Source: Gammaproteobacteria bacterium (GTDB lineage: Bacteria; Pseudomonadota; Gammaproteobacteria; Chromatiales; Chromatiaceae). From it: DNA of 35,408 bases. The stretch lies in NCBI GenBank assembly GCA_009908845.1, contig JAAAOQ010000017.1, forward strand, positions 1-35,408, in the 5' to 3' direction. Below are positions 3,986-26,819 of this stretch, piece by piece. The translations under genes were made by a program, and so were the position numbers. Positions within the stretch are counted from its first letter, which is position 1; every line of letters starts with the position of its first letter. The notes under the pieces were generated by a model. It was given only the letters and a program-made list of their open reading frames with translations. It did not search any database and had not been told where the DNA came from.

Positions 3986-6268
3986 TCAGAATTCCACCCA
4001 TTCTGCCGTTGCGCCCTCGGGCGTCGAGACCTGAACGGCATGTCGGTGCGACTCCGATCGGATCGGGCGGATGTTCGTGCCGGGCTTGGCGTTCTGCTGG
4101 CCTGCTTCCGGCCGGGACCTGTTGCTGCTCGCCTGGCCTCTTTGGGGCTCGGCGGCCCGCTCTGCGGACCCGCCCTGGTCGAGCCTGAAGGCCGAGACCG
4201 CTGTCACCAGGCTCTGCGCCTGCTCATCCAGCGAGGACGCTGCCGCGGCTGCCTCCTCGACCAGCGCCGCGTTCTGCTGCGCGACCGTCTCCATCTCGGT
4301 GGTCGCCTGATTGACCTGCTCGATACCGGCTGACTGCTCCTTGCTGGCGGCCGAGATCTCGTTCATCAGGTCGGTCACCCGGGTGATCGAGGTTACGATC
4401 TCGTCCATCCGGGTGCCGGCCTCGCCGACCGAGCGGGTCCCCGAGTCGACCTTCTCGCCGGCATCGGTGATCAGACCGGTGATCTCCTTTGCGGCCTCGG
4501 CGGTGCGCTGCGCCAGGTTGCGGACCTCGGTGGCGACCACCGCGAACCCGCGGCCCTGCTCGCCGGCCCGTGCGGCCTCGACCGATGCATTCAGCGCCAG
4601 GATGTTGGTCTGGAAGGCGATGCCATCGATCACGGTAATGATGTCGGACATCTTCTCGGAGACGTCCGAGATCTCCTGCATCGTCGCCACCGACCGGCGC
4701 ATCACCTCGCCGCCCTTGTCCGCGGCCTCCGAGGCCGTCATCGAGACCTGATTCGCCTGGTCGGCGTTCTGGGCGTTTTGCTTGACCGTCGCGGTCAGCT
4801 CTTCCATGCTCGCGGCCGTCTCCTGCAGGCTCGATGCCTGCTGCTCGGTTCTGGACGAGAGGTCTTCATTGCCCGATGCAATCTCCTTCGAGGCGGTCGT
4901 GATCGACTCGGCGGAGCCTTGGATCTGGCCGACCAGCTCGCGCAGCCGTGCCACCGTCTCATTGATCGTCATCTTGGTCTCGCCAAAGACGCCCGGGTAG
5001 TCCTTGGTGATCGTCTGAGTGAGGTCGCCTTCGGCGATGGCCTTGGAGACCCGCATCACATCGACGAAGCCGACCTCGCAGTTCTCCATCAGCTGGTTGA
5101 GGTCATTGAGCATCTCGCGGAACATGAAGTCGTAATCATCGGCCCGGCCGCGGTTGGAGAAATTGCCCTGTGAGCCCGCGCTCGCAACGGTCTTGATCTC
5201 CCGGCTGACACTGACCAGACCCTGCTTGACCCCGCCGATCGCCTCGGTGATCTTGGCCTCGTCACCGGGAAGCTGCGGCATATCGGGGGCGAAGTTGCCG
5301 CGAGAGTAATCGGTGATCACGCTGACCATTTGCGTCTTGGTGTCGATATGGCCGCGAAGGAGTTGGTTGACCTTTTCGCCAATCTCGCCGTAGGCACCTG
5401 GGTAGCCTGAGGTATCGATGGTCTCGTTGGTCCAGCCTTCCTGATGCCGTTCGGTCAGGGCCAGCAGGTCTGAGATGAAGGCCTCAAGGACATTCTGCAG
5501 GCCCTTCAATGACGCCAGCAGGCTCGTCTCATCGCCGTCGCGCAGCGCGATCGGCGTATCGAGGTGGCCGGCCGCAATCTCATTGACCCGATCCGCGGCA
5601 TAGGCCGGCTCGCCGCCGAGCTGGCGGATCAGCTTACGGGTGATCCCGAATGCGATCAGGATGGCGACCACGAGCGCAAGGCCGCCGACCAACATGATCA
5701 TGGTCGTTGTCATGGTCGCGCGCTGACGAGCCTCTGCGCCGGCTTGATTCATCAGCTCTCCCTGATACTCGATCAGGGCGGCGGTATTGGATAGGTATTC
5801 GCTCTGCAGTTGCTGAATCTCACCGACCAGCAGTGCCTCAGCCTGCTCGATCTCGTTCGCGCGAACCAGCTCGATGAAGCGCTCGTAGTAACGCAGTTTT
5901 TCATCCCTGGACGCGATTAGCGCGTCGATCTTTTCCTTACCCTCTTCGGTCGTAATCAATGCCTCGAGGCGTTGCATATTGCTCAATGCCTTGCGCTTTT
6001 CTGCTTCAATCGCGTCGAGCTGTTGCTGTCTTCGCCTCGGGTCTTGGAACAAGACAGCCTTGCTCATCGCCATCGAGATCGCGTTGGTCGCATCGACGAG
6101 ATTATTCGCCCAAACGGTCTTTGGAAACTTATCGTTAGCAATGTCGTCGACGCTGTTCTTCAGGCTATTGACGTTGAGGATGCCGACGGCACCGACTGCT
6201 ATGATGAATAGGATCATGACGCCGAAGGCGAGGATGAGCCGGGTTTTCGTTTGCATTTCTGAAACCAT
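3986..6268 (-). CDS. Methyl-accepting chemotaxis protein with 4-helix sensor domain and C-terminal pentapeptide
   Basis: 760 residues. An N-terminal membrane helix (about 10-30) is followed by a four-helix-bundle type ligand domain to about 187, a second helix (188-208), then HAMP. Further HAMP-like repeats follow (GxxDTPI, GNFAPDM, GDLTQTI motifs). The signalling domain (about 440-710) contains the hairpin tip [20 protein letters not shown] with the following [17 protein letters not shown], which is the CheA/CheW contact region. The protein ends in EWVEF, similar to the NWETF tail that tethers CheR/CheB in Tar and Tsr, after a flexible Ser/Gln/Arg-rich linker. Start ATG at 6268 with AGGA about ten bases upstream; a second ATG at 6256 is possible. 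The next gene (LOV sensor) begins about 90 bases downstream on the same strand. The ligand cannot be read from sequence. Confidence 0.93.
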
Positions 6269-21344: not shown

Positions 21345-22058
21345 TCAGCTCTCCTCGGCCGTGCGCTCGAAGCGGACGCGCGCGTCGGTTGCGGCCCCCA
21401 TGATCTTCGCGAGCCAGGGCGGTGTCTTATCGGCGAGTGTCGCGGCGAGCTCGGCGATGTGCTCGCGGGCGTTGCCCATCTGCGGCCGCTTGATCGGGTG
21501 CACGTCCTGCTTGACGACCTTGGCCGCGGCGGGGCCGCCGATCGAGGCGACGTAGAGGATCTGGCAGTCGGCGATCAATGAGGCCCGATAGGCGTTCTTG
21601 TCATCCTGCATCGCGCCTGATGTGGGATCGATCTCGCGGCAGTCGATGAGCTTGAAGCCGTTCGCGGCGACTTGATAGACGAGGAAGCGGCGGCAGGAGC
21701 CGAAATGCCCATCGAGGAGCTCGCCGCCGTTCGAGGCGCAGGCGACTCGAATGGAGTCTGGCAGCTCGCCGTCGGTGTAGGACTCGGGCTCGGGGGCCGG
21801 CTCGATCTCGCTCGCGCCCTGGCCTTTGAGGTGGGCGAGCGCGTCCTTGAGCGAGGCGTTGTCGACATCCGCGAGCTCGCCATCGGCGGCCTGCTTCAGT
21901 GCCTTGACGGTCAGGCTATCGAGGCTTGCCGCGGTTGGCGGCAGTCCGACGGCATCAGCGAGCACGGGCAGGAGCCTGGCGGCGTCGGTGTCCGGCAGAC
22001 AGCGTGCAGCGAGCCCGATGCGCAGCGCGATCTCGTCGGATAAGGTCGTTTGGGTCAT
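21345..22058 (-). CDS. NafY/NifX-family FeMo-cofactor binding protein
   Basis: 237 residues. The N-terminal helical domain (1-85) and the C-terminal NifX/NafY/NifB-type domain (about 102-230), joined by a Pro/Glu-rich linker, match the two-domain layout of Azotobacter NafY. The core has IRVACASNGGELLDGHFGSC followed by FLVYQVA and LIDCREID. His118 in the HFG motif sits close to the position of the NafY histidine (His121, from memory) implicated in FeMo-cofactor binding. It probably holds cofactor or stabilises apo-dinitrogenase before insertion. ATG 22058 has a strong AGGAG six bases upstream. The same frame stays open 255 codons further upstream, but this is chance in GC-rich DNA. It lies 524 bases after the ferredoxin gene, an unusually long operon spacer. 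Confidence 0.88.
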   Translation of the reverse strand: MTQTTLSDEIALRIGLAARCLPDTDAARLLPVLADAVGLPPTAASLDSLTVKALKQAADGELADVDNASLKDALAHLKGQGASEIEPAPEPESYTDGELPDSIRVACASNGGELLDGHFGSCRRFLVYQVAANGFKLIDCREIDPTSGAMQDDKNAYRASLIADCQILYVASIGGPAAAKVVKQDVHPIKRPQMGNAREHIAELAATLADKTPPWLAKIMGAATDARVRFERTAEES

Positions 22059-22582
22059 CGGTTGCTCCTGATCGTGGTCCGGTCTGGTCTGGTTGACACC
22101 GAGGATTCGGGCCGAGGCACGGCGGAGGATGCTGCCGTGCGCCGGCAGAGCCAGCGGCTTGGGGTTGCGGAGGCTTCGGCTTGAGTGGTGGGAAGGTTTC
22201 GACTTGGGGACGAGGCTTCGGCTGGAGCGGTGCTGCGAAGGTTTTCGGCTCGCGGGGTGGCCGAGGCTGCCGGGTAGCGCCCGCCGGGGGACGCCGTGAA
22301 TCCGTCCTTGGAGGCTCGAGCGCAGCATCCTTGCTGCGCACGCCCCCGGCGAGCGCCACCCGACAGCCTCGGCTTCGAACGCCGGCTGTTCGTCGACGCC
22401 GGTGTCGTGTGCTGATGGCGCGCCGGGGCCCTTTGACGTGATCATTGCCGGCTGTCCCGGGGCTGCGGGCTGTCCTGGAAGTGGCCTTGGCTGCCATCGA
22501 CTGGTCTTGGAGCCTCGGCTTGTGCGTCCATGAAACACCGGCTGCGATCGTTTCGCGGTGGGGTGGCGTGCCGTCCTGATGG
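22059..22582 (-). other. Long spacer between ferredoxin and nafY-like genes
   Basis: 524 bases with no recognisable gene. It contains the structured repeat at 22260-22373. It also has loosely repeated GAGGCTTCGGCT-type words, for example near 22167 and 22211, which are related to the outer arm of that repeat. The rest is GC-rich without clear motifs. No sigma-54 promoter is visible, so transcription probably reads through from upstream. Confidence 0.55.
22260..22373 (-). repeat. Structured nif-spacer repeat, copy 1
   Basis: Outer arms 22260-22290 and 22343-22373 are complementary at 28 of 31 positions. Read as RNA from the minus strand, which is the direction of nif transcription, the three exceptions become G-U pairs. 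Inside is a conserved core (AATCCGTCCTTGGAGGCTC on the plus strand, about 22299-22317) and an 8-bp hairpin, GCGCAGCA (22320-22327) with TGCTGCGC (22332-22339). The core is shared with copies 2 and 3, while both stems differ in sequence but keep pairing. This copy lies about 210 bases after the ferredoxin gene. Confidence 0.8.
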
Positions 22583-22771
22583 TTAGGCCGGGACGATGCA
22601 GTCGTCTTCCATGCAGACGTCCAGGCACTGCGGATCGGCATCGTCGCATTCGGTGCAGGTGTTGGCGTCGATCTTGTAGACGCCCTTGAACGGGGTGATG
22701 CTGTCGGTCGGGCAGACGGATTCGCAGTCGCCGCAGGCGGTGCAAAGGTCGCGGATGATTTGAAAGGCCAT
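22583..22771 (-). CDS. 2[4Fe-4S] ferredoxin of the nif operon (FdxN type)
   Basis: 62 residues. It is a bacterial-type ferredoxin with cysteines at 10, 13, 16, 20 (CTACGDCESVCP) and 39, 42, 49, 53 (CTECDDADPQCLDVC), plus Cys58. By the family rule, Cys10, 13, 16 and 53 would bind one cluster and Cys39, 42, 49 and 20 the other. The spacing between the second and third cysteines of the second motif is six residues, whereas I recall eight in typical nif ferredoxins, so the loop is short. It probably carries electrons to NifH. ATG 22771 has a strong GGAGG six bases upstream. It lies 85 bases after nifT, within a spacer holding two hairpins. Confidence 0.94.
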   Translation of the reverse strand: MAFQIIRDLCTACGDCESVCPTDSITPFKGVYKIDANTCTECDDADPQCLDVCMEDDCIVPA

Positions 22772-22805
22772 GTTTAACCTCCGGAGTCGGGGTTTGGGTT
22801 GGCTC

Positions 22806-22856
22806 GCGCCCCAGCGCTCGCATGGGGCGCAGGGACTGGCTGCGGGCGCGCCCGCA
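22806..22856 (-). repeat. Two hairpins between nifT and ferredoxin gene
   Basis: GCGCCCCA (22806-22813) and TGGGGCGC (22823-22830) form an 8-bp stem with a 9-base loop. A perfect 16-base palindrome, TGCGGGCGCGCCCGCA, occupies 22841-22856 and touches the nifT stop codon. There is no T-run. They fill most of the 85-base spacer and may set the end or stability of the upstream message. Confidence 0.5.
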
Positions 22857-23075
22857 TCAGCTGTCGGCGCGCTTGAAGCGGAGCGTGGTCGGAAAGGTCG
22901 GCGGTGGGCTGACCGGATCGATATACCAGCGCGAGCCGTCGGTCAGCTCGACGGAGCCACCCCAGGCGTCGCTGGTATCGGTCTCGACGCTGGCGATGGT
23001 CTCTTCCATGTCCTTCTTGGCGACGTAGAACAGCAGGCCGCCGTCTTCCTTCTTGCGGATCATCACGTTGGGCAT
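22857..23075 (-). CDS. nifT: NifT/FixU family protein
   Basis: 72 residues, the usual NifT length. Start MPNVMIRKKEDGGLLFYV, then KKDMEETIASVE, WGGSVELTDGSRWYIDP and the TLRFKRADS-type end are typical of the family. Its role is not established; it is a small protein almost always found just after nifK and is dispensable in the species where it was tested. It has no cysteines or membrane segment. ATG 23075 has GAG about ten bases upstream; the upstream in-frame extension to 23156 is Arg-rich and not supported. It lies 450 bases after nifK, an unusually long gap filled with repeats and hairpins. Confidence 0.92.
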   Translation of the reverse strand: MPNVMIRKKEDGGLLFYVAKKDMEETIASVETDTSDAWGGSVELTDGSRWYIDPVSPPPTFPTTLRFKRADS

Positions 23076-23143
23076 CTTGTTATGTCTCGTTTTCGTCGTC
23101 GGTAGATGTCGTGAGCGGCAGGGTGTCAGGGCTCGTCGGACTG

Positions 23144-23179
23144 AGGCGGTCACCACCGCCTGATGCCGCTGTCAGCGGC
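23144..23179 (-). repeat. Paired hairpins upstream of nifT
   Basis: AGGCGGT (23144-23150) pairs with ACCGCCT (23155-23161) around a 4-base loop. GCCGCT (23165-23170) pairs with AGCGGC (23174-23179) around a 3-base loop. The GTCAGCGGCGTC word in the second resembles the outer arm of repeat copy 2 at 23278-23290, so it may be a decayed piece of that element. Confidence 0.4.
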
Positions 23180-23258
23180 GTCTATCGGCAGAACACGGAT
23201 CACTGCGCTACTAGGGTTTACAGCCATGCTTCTGCTGGCCAAGGTCTCTCGAGCAGTA

Positions 23259-23367
23259 GTCGCGGCCTTGGCGCCCCGGTCAGCGGCGTCGATCGCCCGG
23301 ATGGCGATCGCAGAGCCTCCAGGGACGGATTCACGGCGGCCGCTGACCGGGGCGCCAGGGCCGCGAC
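23259..23367 (+). repeat. Structured nif-spacer repeat, copy 2 (inverted)
   Basis: Outer arms 23259-23287 and 23339-23367 pair at 28 of 29 positions, and the exception is a G-T wobble on the plus strand. The internal hairpin is CGATCGCC (23290-23297) with GGCGATCG (23303-23310). The conserved core lies on the opposite strand to copies 1 and 3 (GAGCCTCCAGGGACGGATT near 23313-23331). The element is therefore inverted relative to the nif transcript. It sits in the nifK-nifT spacer. Confidence 0.82.
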
Positions 23368-23408
23368 GGGACCGTTGGCACCGAGCACGCGTTTCATGTC
23401 GCCTGAGC

Positions 23409-23470
23409 TCGCGATCCCCTGGGTTCGCGATCCCCTGGGTTCGCGATCCCCTAAGTTCGCGGTCTTAGGT
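23409..23470. repeat. 16-bp tandem repeat downstream of nifK
   Basis: The unit TCGCGATCCCCTGGGT occurs exactly at 23409-23424 and 23425-23440. A third copy with two changes is at 23441-23456 and a diverged partial copy at 23457-23470. The third and fourth copies also create a CCTAAG/CTTAGG inverted repeat (23450-23455, 23464-23469). Exact tandem copies suggest recent slippage expansion, so copy number may vary among strains. Confidence 0.75.
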
Positions 23471-23514
23471 CCCGACCCGACGAGAGGATGCAACCGCTCC
23501 GTCGGGCCGGGACC
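23468..23514 (-). repeat. 15-bp stem-loop just after nifK
   Basis: Arms 23468-23482 (GGTCCCGACCCGACG) and 23500-23514 (CGTCGGGCCGGGACC) pair at 14 of 15 positions. In the nif transcript the exception is a G-U pair. The structure starts 12 bases after the nifK stop codon. No T-run follows, so it may stabilise the nifHDK message or attenuate readthrough into nifT rather than terminate fully. Confidence 0.6.
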
Positions 23515-23525
23515 CACCTTCGCCC

Positions 23526-25097
23526 TTACCGGACCAGGTCGTAACCGAAGTCGGTCACGCCCATCTCGTTCGTCTCGCGGTCGAGCTGCTCGAGCACGGC
23601 GTTGACCAGCGTGGTTAGGATGTACATCGCACCCTCGTAGCCCATGGTGGTCATCCGGTGCAGGTGGTGCCGGTCAAAGATCGGGAAGCCGATCCGGATC
23701 AGTGGCACCTCGTGCGCCTTGCCCTTCTTCAGCGTGTCGCGCTGGATGAACTTGCCGTAGCTATTGCCGATCAGGAAGTCGGGCTTGTCGGTGAAGCACA
23801 GCGAGCGCAGGTGCCAGAGGTCCTTGTTGACGTAGACCGTGGCACCCTGGCCATAGGGCGAGTCGGCCAACATCGCGTCCATCGCCTTCTTCCAACGCTT
23901 GTTGGCATGGTGACAGAGGACGTGGGTCGGCTCGGCACCCAGCTCCAGCAGGAACTTGGTCAGGCCCATCACGAAGTCGGCATCGCCGTAGAGGGCGAAC
24001 TTCTTACCGTGCAGCCACTGATGGCTGTCGGTCATCATGTCGACCAACCGGCCGCGCTCCTTGGCCAACGAGTCCGGGATCGCCTTGCCGGTCAGCTCGG
24101 AGACCTTCATCAGGAAGTCGTCGGTCCATTCCAGGCCCATCGGGATGTCGACCTTGGAGACCGGCTGGTGCCAGGTGGTGTCGATGTACTTCTTGGTCTT
24201 CGGCAGCTGCCAGGGCTGCAGGAGCAGGGTGTCGATCGCGTTCGGGGCGTCCTTGATCTCGTCGATCTTGGTGCCGCCGTCGTACATCCGATACTCGCCG
24301 TCGGCCGGGGTGTCGAGCACATCGGTTGGGTCGCTGAGCAGCGTGTAGCCGACGCCCATCTCCTGCATCATCCGGTGCAGCACGCGGAAGTTGCCGAGGT
24401 AGGTCTCGAAGCCCGGCACGAGGTTGATCTTGCCGTTGCTGCCTACGGCCTTGTTCTCCATCTCGTTGAGGGTGAAGTAGCGCATGGTCCCTTCGAACAT
24501 GTTGTCCCAGCCGGTGGTGTGGCTGCCGACGAAGCTCGGGGTGTGCGCGAATGGGGTCGGGAACTCGGCCGGGATGTGACCTTCCTTCTTTGAGTTACTG
24601 ATGAAGGCGTTGAGGTCGTCACCGATGACCTCGGCCATGCAGGTGGTCGAGACCGCGATCATCTCGGGCTTGTAGAGGGCCTTGGCGTTCTCGAGGCCGT
24701 CGAACATGTTCTTCTGACCGCCGAACACCGCCGCGTCCTCGGTCATCGAGTCGGAGACGCAGGCGATGGGCTCCTTGAAGTGGCGGTTGAAGTAGGTCCG
24801 GAAGTAGGCGACGCAGCCCTGCGAGCCGTGCACGTAGGGCAGGGTCTTCTCGAAGCCGAGCGCGCAGAGGACGGCGCCGAGCGGCTGGCAGGCCTTGGCC
24901 GGGTTGATGGTCAGGGCCTCGCGGGCGAAGTTCAGCTCTTGGTATTCCTTGGTGGTGGTCCACTCGAAGGTCTCGTCGAGCTTGGCCTGGTCGGCACGTT
25001 CTTCGGAGAGCTCGCGCTTGTTGGTGATGGTGGCCTGGTAGTCCTCGTCGAGGAAGAGGGGGTAGCCGGGCTTGATTTGGTCGACGGTCTGGGTCAT
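23526..25097 (-). CDS. nifK: Nitrogenase molybdenum-iron protein beta chain NifK
   Basis: 523 residues, the same size class as Azotobacter NifK. P-cluster ligands are at the canonical numbers: Cys70 (NPAKACQPLGAV), Cys95 (HGSQGCVAYFRTYFNRHFKEP) and Cys153 (STTCMAEVIGDD). The N-terminal extension typical of molybdenum-type beta chains is present (QIKPGYPLFLDEDYQ). The C-terminus has FPIFDRHHLHR and NEMGVTDFGYDLVR. It pairs with NifD and holds the P-cluster between the subunits. ATG 25097 is followed by TQTVDQIKP, and GGAGC lies a few bases upstream. A 237-base spacer with repeat copy 3 separates it from nifD. Confidence 0.98.
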   Translation of the reverse strand: MTQTVDQIKPGYPLFLDEDYQATITNKRELSEERADQAKLDETFEWTTTKEYQELNFAREALTINPAKACQPLGAVLCALGFEKTLPYVHGSQGCVAYFRTYFNRHFKEPIACVSDSMTEDAAVFGGQKNMFDGLENAKALYKPEMIAVSTTCMAEVIGDDLNAFISNSKKEGHIPAEFPTPFAHTPSFVGSHTTGWDNMFEGTMRYFTLNEMENKAVGSNGKINLVPGFETYLGNFRVLHRMMQEMGVGYTLLSDPTDVLDTPADGEYRMYDGGTKIDEIKDAPNAIDTLLLQPWQLPKTKKYIDTTWHQPVSKVDIPMGLEWTDDFLMKVSELTGKAIPDSLAKERGRLVDMMTDSHQWLHGKKFALYGDADFVMGLTKFLLELGAEPTHVLCHHANKRWKKAMDAMLADSPYGQGATVYVNKDLWHLRSLCFTDKPDFLIGNSYGKFIQRDTLKKGKAHEVPLIRIGFPIFDRHHLHRMTTMGYEGAMYILTTLVNAVLEQLDRETNEMGVTDFGYDLVR

Positions 25098-25200
25098 CGG
25101 TGTGCTCCTGCCGCGCCGCTTATCTGCGGACTGACGGCCAGTGAAAACGGGTTCAATTGACGTCTGGCTGTGACTTCTCGCTAAGGCGCTGACCTTTGGG

Positions 25201-25309
25201 GGGCCGGTGCCGGTCTCACGTCCGGCGGCCGCCGTAAATCCGTCCTTGGAGGCTCTGCGATCGCCGTCCGGGCGATCGACGCCGCCGGCCGCGAGCCCGG
25301 CACCGGCCC
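25201..25309 (-). repeat. Structured nif-spacer repeat, copy 3
   Basis: Outer arms GGGCCGGTGCCGG (25201-25213) and CCGGCACCGGCCC (25297-25309) are perfect over 13 bp. A second stem is CCGGCGGC (25222-25229) with GCCGCCGG (25281-25288). The internal hairpin is CGATCGCC (25258-25265) with GGCGATCG (25271-25278). The core AATCCGTCCTTGGAGGCTC (25237-25255) matches copy 1. The element ends 25 bases after the nifD stop and occupies the nifD-nifK spacer. Confidence 0.82.
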
Positions 25310-25334
25310 TTGGGTCTCGTTCAGTGCTAGCCGA

Positions 25335-26819
25335 TCAAGCGCTGGCGGCCACCGGGGCCTCGCCCTCGCCCGCGGCGGGCTTGAGCCAGGGCGCCTGCAT
25401 GCTGTTCCAGCAGGGGTTGTTGATGGTCATGTCCATGTCGCGCGCGAAGATCGCGAAGCCGTCGTAGCCGTGGTAGGGACCCGAGTAGTCCCAGGAGTGC
25501 ATCTGGCGGAAGGGCACACCCATCTTCTGGAAGATGTACTTCTCCTTGATGCCGGAGCCGACCAGGTCGGGCTTGACGCGCTTGGTGAATTCCTCGAACT
25601 CGTAGCCGGTGACGTCATCGTAGAGCAGCGTCGAGTCGGCCATCTCTTTCATCGTGCGGTCGTAGTCATCATTGTGGGCGAACTCGTAGCCGGTGCCGAC
25701 GACCTCCATGCCGAGGTCCTCGTAGGCGCCGACGATGTGGCGCGGGCGCAGGCCGCCGACGTAGAGCATCACCTTCTTGCCTTCCAAGCGCGGGCGGTAC
25801 TTGGCGATCACAGCGTCGTACTCGGCCTGGTATTTGGCGATGACCTTCTCGGCGTTGGCCTGGATGGTCTCGTCGAAGAACTCGGCAATCTTGCGCAGCG
25901 ACTCGGCGATCTTGGTCGGCCCGAACAGGTTGTATTCCATCCACGGCACGCCGTAGCGCTCTTCCATGTGGCGGCTGATGTAGTTCATCGAGCGGTAGCA
26001 GTGGATCAGGTTGAGCTTGACCTTCGGGGTGAGCTCCATCTCCGAGAGGGTGCCGTCACCGGACCACTGGGCGACGACGCGCAGCCCCATCTCCTCGAGC
26101 AGGATGCGCGAGGACCAGGCGTCACCGCCGATGTTGTAGTCGCCGATGATCGCGACGTCGTAAGGTCCGACCTCGAAGCTGTTGTCGTTGTCGCGGTTGT
26201 GCACGACATGGTCGCGGATCGCATCGTTGGCGATGTGATGGCCGAGCGACTGGGAGACGCCGCGGAAGCCTTCGCAGCGGACCGGGATCACCGGCTTGTC
26301 CAGATCCTTGGTCTTCTTCTTGGAGACCGACTCGATGTCGTCGCCGATCAGGCCGATCGGGCACTCGGACTGGACCGTGATGCCCTTCGCGAGCGGGAAT
26401 AGCTGCTCGATCTCATCGACGAGCTTGTCCAGCTTCTTGTCGCCGCCGAAGACGATGTCCTTCTCCTGGAAGTCGGAGGTGAAGTTCATCGTGCCGAAGG
26501 TGTTCACGCCGGTCATGCCGGTGTAGTAGTTGCGACGTCCGGCGCGCGAGTACTGACCGCAGCCGACGGGACCGTGCGAGATATGCACCATGTCCTTGAC
26601 CGGACCCCAGACCACGCCTTTGGAGCCGGCGTAGGCGCAGCCGCGGATGGTCATTACGCCAGGCTGGGACTTGCGGTTGGAGGTGATGCACTTCTTCGAT
26701 TGCTCGACGCTCGGGTCGTTGACGGCCAAGTGCTTGGCCCGGTCCTTCTTTGCCTTCTCGGGGTAAACCTCCAGGACCTCCTGGATGAGGGCTTGGGTCT
26801 CTTCGCGGGTCATTGCCAT
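25335..26819 (-). CDS. nifD: Nitrogenase molybdenum-iron protein alpha chain NifD
   Basis: 494 residues. P-cluster ligands Cys61 (TIRGCAYAG), Cys87 ([10 protein letters not shown]) and Cys153 ([13 protein letters not shown]) match Azotobacter Cys62, 88 and 154 with a one-residue shift. The FeMo-cofactor ligands are the Cys in [12 protein letters not shown] and the His in [17 protein letters not shown]. Together with the NifK features this indicates the molybdenum enzyme rather than the vanadium or iron-only type. ATG 26819 is chosen because AGAGGA lies eight bases upstream and the protein then starts MAMTREET; an upstream ATG at 26858 would add 13 unsupported residues. It lies 184 bases after nifH. 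The C-terminal tail is Ala/Glu-rich. Confidence 0.98.

Follow-up and report, generated by a model that had tools for sequence, protein, structure and literature searches.

Palindromic elements between nif genes

The window, a stretch of 35,408 nucleotides at the start of contig JAAAOQ010000017.1 from a gammaproteobacterium assigned to the Chromatiaceae, was found to carry three long palindromes, each built about a common asymmetric core, in spacers between nif genes. The core, AATCCRTCCNTGGAGGCTC, matched the window three times with at most three mismatches, compared with 0.04 matches expected in shuffled sequence. A covariance model trained on 60 other copies (none from the window, one from other loci of the same genome and five from the genus) recovered the same three elements as the only matches at E < 0.1, the next match having an E value of 0.74. 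The elements are listed below together with their core and inner hairpins; the strand given is the one opposite the AATCC of the core, here called the GGA strand.

22260..22373, minus strand: element copy 1, 31-pair outer stem, 92.6 bits with the covariance model
22301..22312, minus strand: core hairpin of copy 1, UCC-AAGGAC-GGA
22320..22339, minus strand: inner hairpin of copy 1, GCGCAGC-AAGGAU-GCUGCGC
23259..23367, plus strand (inverted): element copy 2, 29-pair outer stem, 72.5 bits
23318..23329, plus strand: core hairpin of copy 2, UCC-AGGGAC-GGA
23290..23310, plus strand: inner hairpin of copy 2, CGAUCGCC-CGGAU-GGCGAUCG
25201..25309, minus strand: element copy 3, 29-pair stem with three deviations, 65.3 bits
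25239..25250, minus strand: core hairpin of copy 3, UCC-AAGGAC-GGA
25258..25278, minus strand: inner hairpin of copy 3, CGAUCGCC-CGGAC-GGCGAUCG

Copy 1 lies between a nifX-like gene and a small open reading frame that gave no NCBIfam match and is ferredoxin-like in our own reading, copy 2 between nifK and nifT, and copy 3 between nifD and nifK. The GGA strand has the direction of the nif genes in copies 1 and 3 and is antisense to them in copy 2. On re-measurement, 28 of the 31 outer pairs of copy 1, 28 of 29 in copy 2 and 26 of 29 in copy 3 were Watson-Crick pairs, and the fold of copy 1 gave z values of -7.3 on the plus strand and -8.8 on the minus strand. Three copies with a shared core, an internal hairpin and an outer stem had been proposed from the DNA alone (the original prediction), and this description stands, as does the statement that all four outer-stem deviations in copies 1 and 2 are A/C oppositions on the AATCC strand and become G-U pairs on the opposite one. 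Copy 3 has one more G-U-type pair and two A-G oppositions on the strand opposite AATCC. The claim that the stems are unrelated between copies does not hold for copy 1, the arm of which is a diverged version of an arm common in the genus; those of copies 2 and 3 are more divergent.

A role in the nif operon had also been suggested. It is putative at most: copy 2 is antisense to the operon, copy 3 occurs in reverse orientation at the same place in one relative (G001) and is absent from other relatives, and 27 of the genome's 30 copies lie beyond the window. Among eight relatives with no element in the nifD-nifK spacer, five have a plain hairpin there, G004 has a weak one and G003 and G006 have none, and this set offered no clean case for an empty-site comparison of mobility.

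Distribution of the repeat family

The elements belong to a gammaproteobacterial repeat family; the same core occurs in Yersinia YPAL/RU-2 and in Rfam Ysr224, and the expectation that the family was known in part was thus correct. Positive genomes held from one to about 500 matches, the many-copy species Methylotuvimicrobium buryatense 5G having about 500. Some genomes with a single match may owe it to chance, L039, which is without matching arms, being an example. No family member was found in plasmids and phages, four weak plasmid matches aside, and E. coli was without a match to the Sodalis copy.

Arm complementarity and a one-strand G-U bias

Across copies the outer arms change in step on both sides, with a covariation score of 0.783 compared with 0.176 for shuffled and at most 0.141 for slid arms; mutual information was computed on 64 of 89 copies, ungapped, with the negative register excluded. 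Of the 62 sequences that met a filter requiring an inner-loop GGA and the formation of most pairs, alignment A1 includes 60; the invariance of its inner loop and its percentage of paired cells therefore follow in part from the selection itself.

Deviations from complementarity were counted in copies with 15 or more outer pairs (179 of 214), reduced to a non-redundant set of 115 at 80% left-arm identity. They fall as G-U pairs on the GGA strand far more often than on the other strand (99 v 21, or 77 v 20 with each five-pair context counted once), and A-G oppositions are distributed likewise (34 v 3). The same preference was observed for changes that arose in place between orthologous copies: in nine groups, G-U changes numbered 24 v 3, alongside 14 two-sided Watson-Crick changes, an extra pair present only in G002 and G005 of group O2 (one deviation each way) being excluded. 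Isolated stem deviations in G281 gave 57 v 25, shared ones included. In the inner stems, where cases are few, G-U pairs numbered 7 v 2 but A-G oppositions were reversed, 2 v 4. An apparent strand preference in the order of the match list was not borne out by the DNA.

These counts support selection on folding of the strand opposite the AATCC core, and to this extent the selection for a folded strand that had been predicted is upheld, in the 115 copies as well as in the orthologues. The bias is absent from 47 stems sampled in G271, a genome with 144 copies (G-U 20 v 17, A-G 8 v 6; of 53 copies sampled, at places among the best model scores, 47 reached 15 outer pairs). It is absent also from three MITE-like subfamilies, where private changes, found in at most two copies, numbered 21 v 25 and more common changes 26 v 22. 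This part of the evidence qualifies the prediction, as does the possibility that template switching explains much of the two-sided change in the arms. A mutation bias as the source of the asymmetry is not supported by the subfamily control; a bias dependent on the hairpin could still contribute, since the subfamily stems are less perfect.

Gene direction and genomic surroundings

The G-U bias was alike in both gene directions: 28 v 5 where the two neighbouring genes have the direction of the GGA strand, and 25 v 5 where both are opposed to it. This contradicts host transcription as its cause and limits a reading in terms of RNA. No preference in orientation was detected, 28 copies being co-directional with both neighbours and 25 opposed to both (22 v 21 for genes within 400 nt), and in G281 the opposed arrangement was the commoner one, 32 v 15. 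Genes were called by our own codon-usage caller and not taken from annotation. An explanation by replication strand is weak: when copies were tallied by hand in 20 stretches of 20 kb, evenly spaced along G281, 29 had the AATCC strand on the positive-skew strand and 17 had it on the other. One zero-skew stretch, with one copy, was excluded, and a further 20 stretches, mostly around listed plus matches, were kept out.

Gene pairs around the elements are more often convergent than divergent (27 v 12, and 22 v 7 within 400 nt). This would suit an ordinary hairpin at the end of an mRNA, either a terminator or a stabiliser with irrelevant loops, and so would the plain hairpins of the five element-free relatives and the statement that YPAL 'might influence' the stability of upstream transcripts (PMC2229807). 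Such a hairpin is nevertheless improbable, given that G281 has as many divergent as convergent pairs (14 of each) and that conservation is far stronger in the loops and in their spacing than in the stem. Nor is there a clear enrichment of U-tracts after the stem on either strand in the 115 copies (GGA strand 3 v 1.9 shuffled, core strand 9 v 6.1), and a Rho-independent terminator was rejected on this ground for both strands.

Mobility and template switching

In the sampled copies of G271 the cores and inner hairpins are similar and the outer arms, of 30–51 pairs, are widely different; 14 of 47 stems are free of mismatches, compared with 9 of 115 in the non-redundant set. Homogenisation of arms and inversion of the spacer or loop by template switching have been described (PMC8604942 and PMC8794818). 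Both the two-sided arm change and the in-place inversion of the core seen in copy 3 fit this known DNA process, and template switching between inverted repeats can also yield much two-sided arm change. Amplified subfamilies in G000, G027 and G281 have common termini beginning TATAC, candidate terminal inverted repeats of a DNA transposon, none of which was seen by eye beside the nif copies.

On this evidence, and with gene direction showing no preference, it is quite possible, if not the reading preferred here, that the repeat is a mobile palindromic DNA element with no RNA function, in which template switching keeps the arms complementary and sometimes inverts the core, and in which recognition by a mobility protein accounts for the conserved core. 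Such an element predicts no strand preference, yet a strong one was found in 115 copies from many genomes and between orthologues. A partner transposase was not identified either, Y1_Tnp being the only one searched.

Y1_Tnp proteins were found in 34 of the 40 genomes searched. Together with the strand-specific fold and the position of the palindromes between genes, they would accord with a Y1/RAYT transposase that mobilises a REP-like element in the form of a single-stranded hairpin. This explanation is very improbable: it is already weakened by three genomes that hold copies without a Y1_Tnp match at E <= 0.001 (G271 with 144, G349 with 47 and G380 with 9 copies), and conversely G054, G157 and G172 have 9, 6 and 5 Y1 matches and no core match. 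Moreover, selection at the stage of transposition would not bias changes in resident orthologues.

Twin GGA hairpins resembling CsrA sites

Each of the two small hairpins has, on the strand opposite AATCC, a loop of the form (A/C)NGGA(Y), and the two GGAs lie about 20 nt apart. The search pattern fixed the core loop as ANGGAY and left out the inner hairpin, in which GGA was found in 185 of the 196 copies with a scored inner hairpin, on 112 distinct inner stems; by hand count, 158 of these 185 loops are ANGGAN and 26 are CNGGAN. The gap between the GGAs is 20 nt in 80 of the 105 non-redundant copies with an inner-loop GGA and 18–21 nt in all 105. The covariance model yielded 20 further copies; judged by eye, GGA is retained in the core loop and the inner loop of 19, two of which have a damaged core stem. 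A site for DNA recognition would need no paired GGA loops at a set distance, which argues against the purely DNA-based alternative.

On the GGA strand, the A/T-type core has the sequence UACANGGAYGUA; for CsrA, a consensus RUACARGGAUGU, an ANGGAN hexaloop and bridging of two sites 10–63 nt apart are given in PMC7652899. Both hairpin loops thus resemble published CsrA/RsmA sites, and the spacing of the predicted twin sites lies inside the bridging range in every copy measured. Against a CsrA reading, the inner loops of window copies 2 and 3 start with C and not A, and the inner stem, of 7–8 bp, is longer than most SELEX-selected stems, which have four pairs or fewer (PMC7652899).

CsrA is encoded in the genome that carries the window. 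A match was missing from eight of 72 distinct genomes, seven of them 89% complete or less. All 45 core-matching genomes were checked, and CsrA was present in every one at least 90% complete except G228, which is 98% complete and has 10 copies and no CsrA match, another point against the CsrA reading.

A proposed function

The explanation preferred, tentatively, is that the element is mobile and palindromic and that its GGA strand, when folded, acts as RNA and presents a twin CsrA-type site. It would be a dispersed, YPAL-like repeat of mobile origin, the conserved centre being the hairpin pair, held out by a long stem whose sequence varies by locus. The folded strand would act as RNA, its two loops bridged by a CsrA/RsmA dimer, and a transcript through the element would gain a high-affinity CsrA site able to protect or mark its end; many copies could titrate CsrA. 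Complementarity of the arms would have two sources: template switching at replication, which would copy one arm from the other and could invert the core in place, and removal of changes by which the GGA strand would lose its fold. Binding of CsrA, expression in this organism and an effect on the nif genes are putative.

A wider proposal, rather unlikely on present evidence, is that, through this mobile family, gammaproteobacterial genomes acquire ready-made double CsrA/RsmA sites in numbers from tens to hundreds. Transcription of the GGA strand would then subject the neighbouring operon, in this case nif, to control by Csr, the copies would jointly form a genome-encoded CsrA buffer, and inversion of the core would toggle a site between CsrA-binding and non-binding orientations. 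Repeats of this kind are commonly regarded as mobile debris; if the paired CsrA site were their sole conserved feature, they would make up a large share of the Csr network that annotation misses, and the single foldable strand in many copies would be explained. The orthologue sets also offer a test case, in bacteria, in which selection for a folded RNA may be told apart from homogenisation by template switching, a distinction that covariation by itself does not allow.

Comparison with known systems

The elements are like MITEs and REP/BIME in being short, palindromic, multicopy and intergenic, and amplified subfamilies share TATAC termini, which were not seen beside the nif copies. They differ from both in that the arms vary among copies and three genomes with copies lack a Y1 transposase. 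Like CsrB/RsmZ-type RNAs they have ANGGA-loop hairpins, more than one per RNA, with spacing in the bridging range; those RNAs have many sites, whereas the element has two, on a long palindromic stem, and occurs as scattered repeats. Neither the window nor its nif part matched any csr/rsm family of Rfam. The TwoAYGGAY motif has the loops that its name gives. Its Rfam model was absent among matches up to E = 10 in positions 22000–25500; the motif is listed in PMC2864571.

Rfam Ysr224 (RF02770) aligns to copy 1 over the entire model with 38.1 bits (E 2.1e-6), under its gathering score of 70 bits, and leaves copies 2 and 3 unmatched; the Sodalis copy exceeds that score with 82.9. The model is oriented along the AATCC strand, opposite to the GGA strand, which was counted against the RNA and CsrA reading. 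Ysr224 copies of Y. ruckeri are transcribed, with profiles that differ between copies (PMC12112432), and transcription of the family is known from Yersinia papers only.

YPAL/RU-2 is likewise intergenic, repeated and palindromic, and is listed as a family with predicted conserved structure (RNAz P 1.00; PMC2267715). When the reverse strand of the RU-2 sequence (PMC2759123, Table 1b) is compared by eye, it shows both the core and the inner hairpin, the loops being ATGGAT and AAGGAT. Its unit is 168 bp, compared with about 110 bp for the window elements, and has different arms, only the central part being in common by eye; insertion at or adjoining dyad symmetry, with target duplications of 3–26 bp, is a YPAL/RU-2 trait, and the present family extends over many gammaproteobacterial orders. 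Neither the strand bias nor a CsrA-type twin site was found in the open papers searched, outside which the original YPAL description lies. The repeat family was thus known in part, and the CsrA-type twin site and the strand bias are new here.

Placement of the elements in the nif cluster

The nif cluster of the window lies on the minus strand and holds three palindromic elements, each with an asymmetric centre inside an outer stem of 29-31 pairs. Copy 3 occupies the nifD-nifK spacer, copy 2 the nifK-nifT spacer, and copy 1 the spacer between a small ORF and a nifX-like gene.

27888-27004, minus strand, nifH
26858-25335, minus strand, nifD
25201-25309, minus strand, copy 3
25097-23526, minus strand, nifK
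23259-23367, plus strand, copy 2
23081-22857, minus strand, nifT
~22772-22584, minus strand, small ORF, ferredoxin-like by our reading, without NCBIfam match
22260-22373, minus strand, copy 1
Minus-strand nif cluster, nifX-like gene

A covariance model trained on 60 other copies recovered exactly these three in the window (E < 0.1) and no others, and the original prediction of three nif-spacer copies with a common core and a long outer stem was right. Adjoining copy 2, at 23405-23465, is a short tandem repeat, tcgcgatcccctgggt, in about three copies plus a partial one, with fewer units in the relative G001. In G002 (L055 near 4488) and G005 (L056 near 4395) the nifK-nifT spacer seemingly has a second, decayed copy alongside copy 2.

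The nifD-nifK spacer contains the element in 4 of 12 genomes, its own included. Among the element-free spacers of the eight relatives (L072, L074-L080), a plain hairpin of other sequence is found in five (G007, G009, G010, G011, G014), a weak hairpin in G004 and none in G003 and G006. Because five of the eight carry a plain hairpin, a pre-existing hairpin may have received the element or been replaced by it. Amplified subfamilies of G000, G027 and G281 have the common termini TATAC...GTATA, and termini of this type were not visible at the nif copies. No Y1/RAYT transposase match was obtained in three copy-bearing genomes, and U-tracts were not clearly enriched after the element stem.

Structure of the centre

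On the strand opposite AATCC, here named the GGA strand, the centre reads in order: inner hairpin, short linker, GCC UMC ANGGAY GKA UUCAC GGC. The core forms a 3-bp hairpin stacked on a further 3 bp across the conserved UUCAC bulge. The second-position closing pair of the core hairpin is A-T in 71 and C-G in 41 of 115 copies; in 10 of 115 the lower helix has T/C at its third pair as read on the AATCC strand, which makes G-A on the GGA strand.

Both hairpin loops contain GGA, that of the core being set by the search pattern, outside which the inner hairpin lies. Among the 196 copies whose inner hairpin was scored, 185 carry GGA in its loop, on 112 different inner stems; by hand summation the loop is ANGGAN in 158 of these 185 and CNGGAN in 26. 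Window copies 2 and 3 have the C type. The gap between the two GGAs is 18-21 nt in every one of the 105 copies measured and exactly 20 nt in 80 of them. Twenty of the further copies that the model found in G000, G001 and G005 were read, 19 of them new relative to the pattern listings; by eye all but one of the 20 retain both loop GGAs (two of the retaining copies have a damaged core stem), which is supportive only, because the covariance model itself favours GGA. In some copies of G281 (L231-L300) the inner hairpin encloses a further repeat family (gcgccAAGGATggcgtgaatgcagattttgcaggagc...), whose own ANGGAT hairpins lie on the opposite strand.

Strand bias of the outer stems

From 214 distinct copies, 179 with an outer stem of at least 15 pairs were retained and thinned to 115. 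Isolated deviations with two Watson-Crick pairs on either side were counted by strand-symmetric scoring. G-U pairs fell on the GGA strand rather than the other by 99 to 21 (77 to 20 with each local 5-pair context taken once), A-G pairs by 34 to 3, and G-G stood against C-C at 15 to 1. The direction was the same in all four sampling groups (9 to 2, 6 to 2, 61 to 11 and 23 to 6).

Across nine orthologue sets of the genus, among them those of the three nif copies, deviations arisen in place numbered 24 to 3, beside 14 two-sided Watson-Crick changes. Private stem changes in three amplified MITE-like subfamilies were even, 21 to 25 (Fisher test against the orthologue set, p = 0.0004), so mutation alone is not apparently one-sided. 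Covariation was far above shuffled and slid controls in a 60-sequence alignment, pre-filtered for inner-loop GGA and most pairs formed, so that pairing percentage and inner-loop invariance are partly built in. For 64 ungapped copies, all 24 rows of mutual information had their maximum at the paired position.

The predicted selection for a folded strand is mostly borne out by the G-U and in-place counts, which point to the GGA strand as the one kept foldable; the indifference of the bias to gene direction and its absence in G271 limit an RNA reading of that fold.

Orientation and possible template switching

The bias was 28 to 5 with the GGA strand along neighbouring genes and 25 to 5 against them, and copies showed no preferred orientation relative to these genes (28 to 25). 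In all four genomes where copy 2 was found it runs antisense to nif, and its in-place deviations are nonetheless 4 to 0. Equal bias in both directions does not fit a simple RNA account.

Template switching between inverted repeats, which homogenises arms and inverts spacers or loops according to PMC8604942 and PMC8794818, could explain the two-sided part of the changes, but it does not predict the one-strand bias; for this reason two-sided change alone was not taken as proof of RNA function. Between unchanged flanks, copy 3 of G001 (L054, core at 4740) has the orientation opposite to that in G000, G002 and G005, an inversion in place; its 27-pair stem is mismatch-free, and three pairs are swapped from C-G to G-C. 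G271 has 144 copies by the model; those sampled have alike cores and widely differing outer arms of 30-51 pairs, with 14 of 47 stems mismatch-free and no strand bias (20 to 17), a pattern that looks like arm-to-arm copying. Arms in this genome (L399-L436) are seemingly more alike at their outer ends than in the middle.

With copy 2 antisense and copy 3 inverted in one relative, a role specific to nitrogen fixation finds no support at present.

Relation to known repeats and CsrA targets

Core matches occur in 15 of 55 genomes with one mismatch allowed and in 45 of 369 across the class with the exact pattern, own genome included in both; G281 has 511 at one mismatch, and the own genome has 30 copies by covariance model. 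Named genomes hold at least 119 matching loci; among the 119 listed, 117 are gammaproteobacterial by genus and 2 are given only as Proteobacteria.

The Rfam model Ysr224 (RF02770) aligned end to end with copy 1 at 38.1 bits (E 2.1e-6; gathering score 70), and a Sodalis copy passed the gathering score. The printed sequence of the Yersinia palindrome RU-2/YPAL contains the element's centre (PMC2759123); the family is, as foreseen, known in part, its centre being common to both. For YPAL, PMC2229807 describes target duplications of 3-26 bp, targets that span or adjoin dyad symmetry and an influence that YPAL may have on transcripts upstream, and PMC2267715 catalogues it as structured; several Ysr224 copies are transcribed in Y. 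ruckeri, as stated in PMC12112432.

CsrA is encoded in the own genome and in every checked matching genome at least 90% complete except G228, a copy-bearing genome whose lack of a match counts against a CsrA reading, as do the equal bias in both gene directions and the modelling of the sRNA Ysr224 on the non-GGA strand. No link between the family and CsrA was found in the literature searched. PMC7652899 gives the SELEX consensus RUACARGGAUGU, the CsrB repeat CAGGA(U/A/C)G, the ANGGAN hexaloop of high-affinity RsmE targets, and bridging between sites 10-63 nt apart. Both GGA-strand hairpins are like these CsrA/RsmE motifs, and the same strand is the one kept foldable, a candidate twin CsrA-type site. 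What the present analysis adds to Ysr224 and YPAL is the breadth of the family, the in-place one-strand bias, the pair of CsrA-type loops and the inversion of copy 3 in place.
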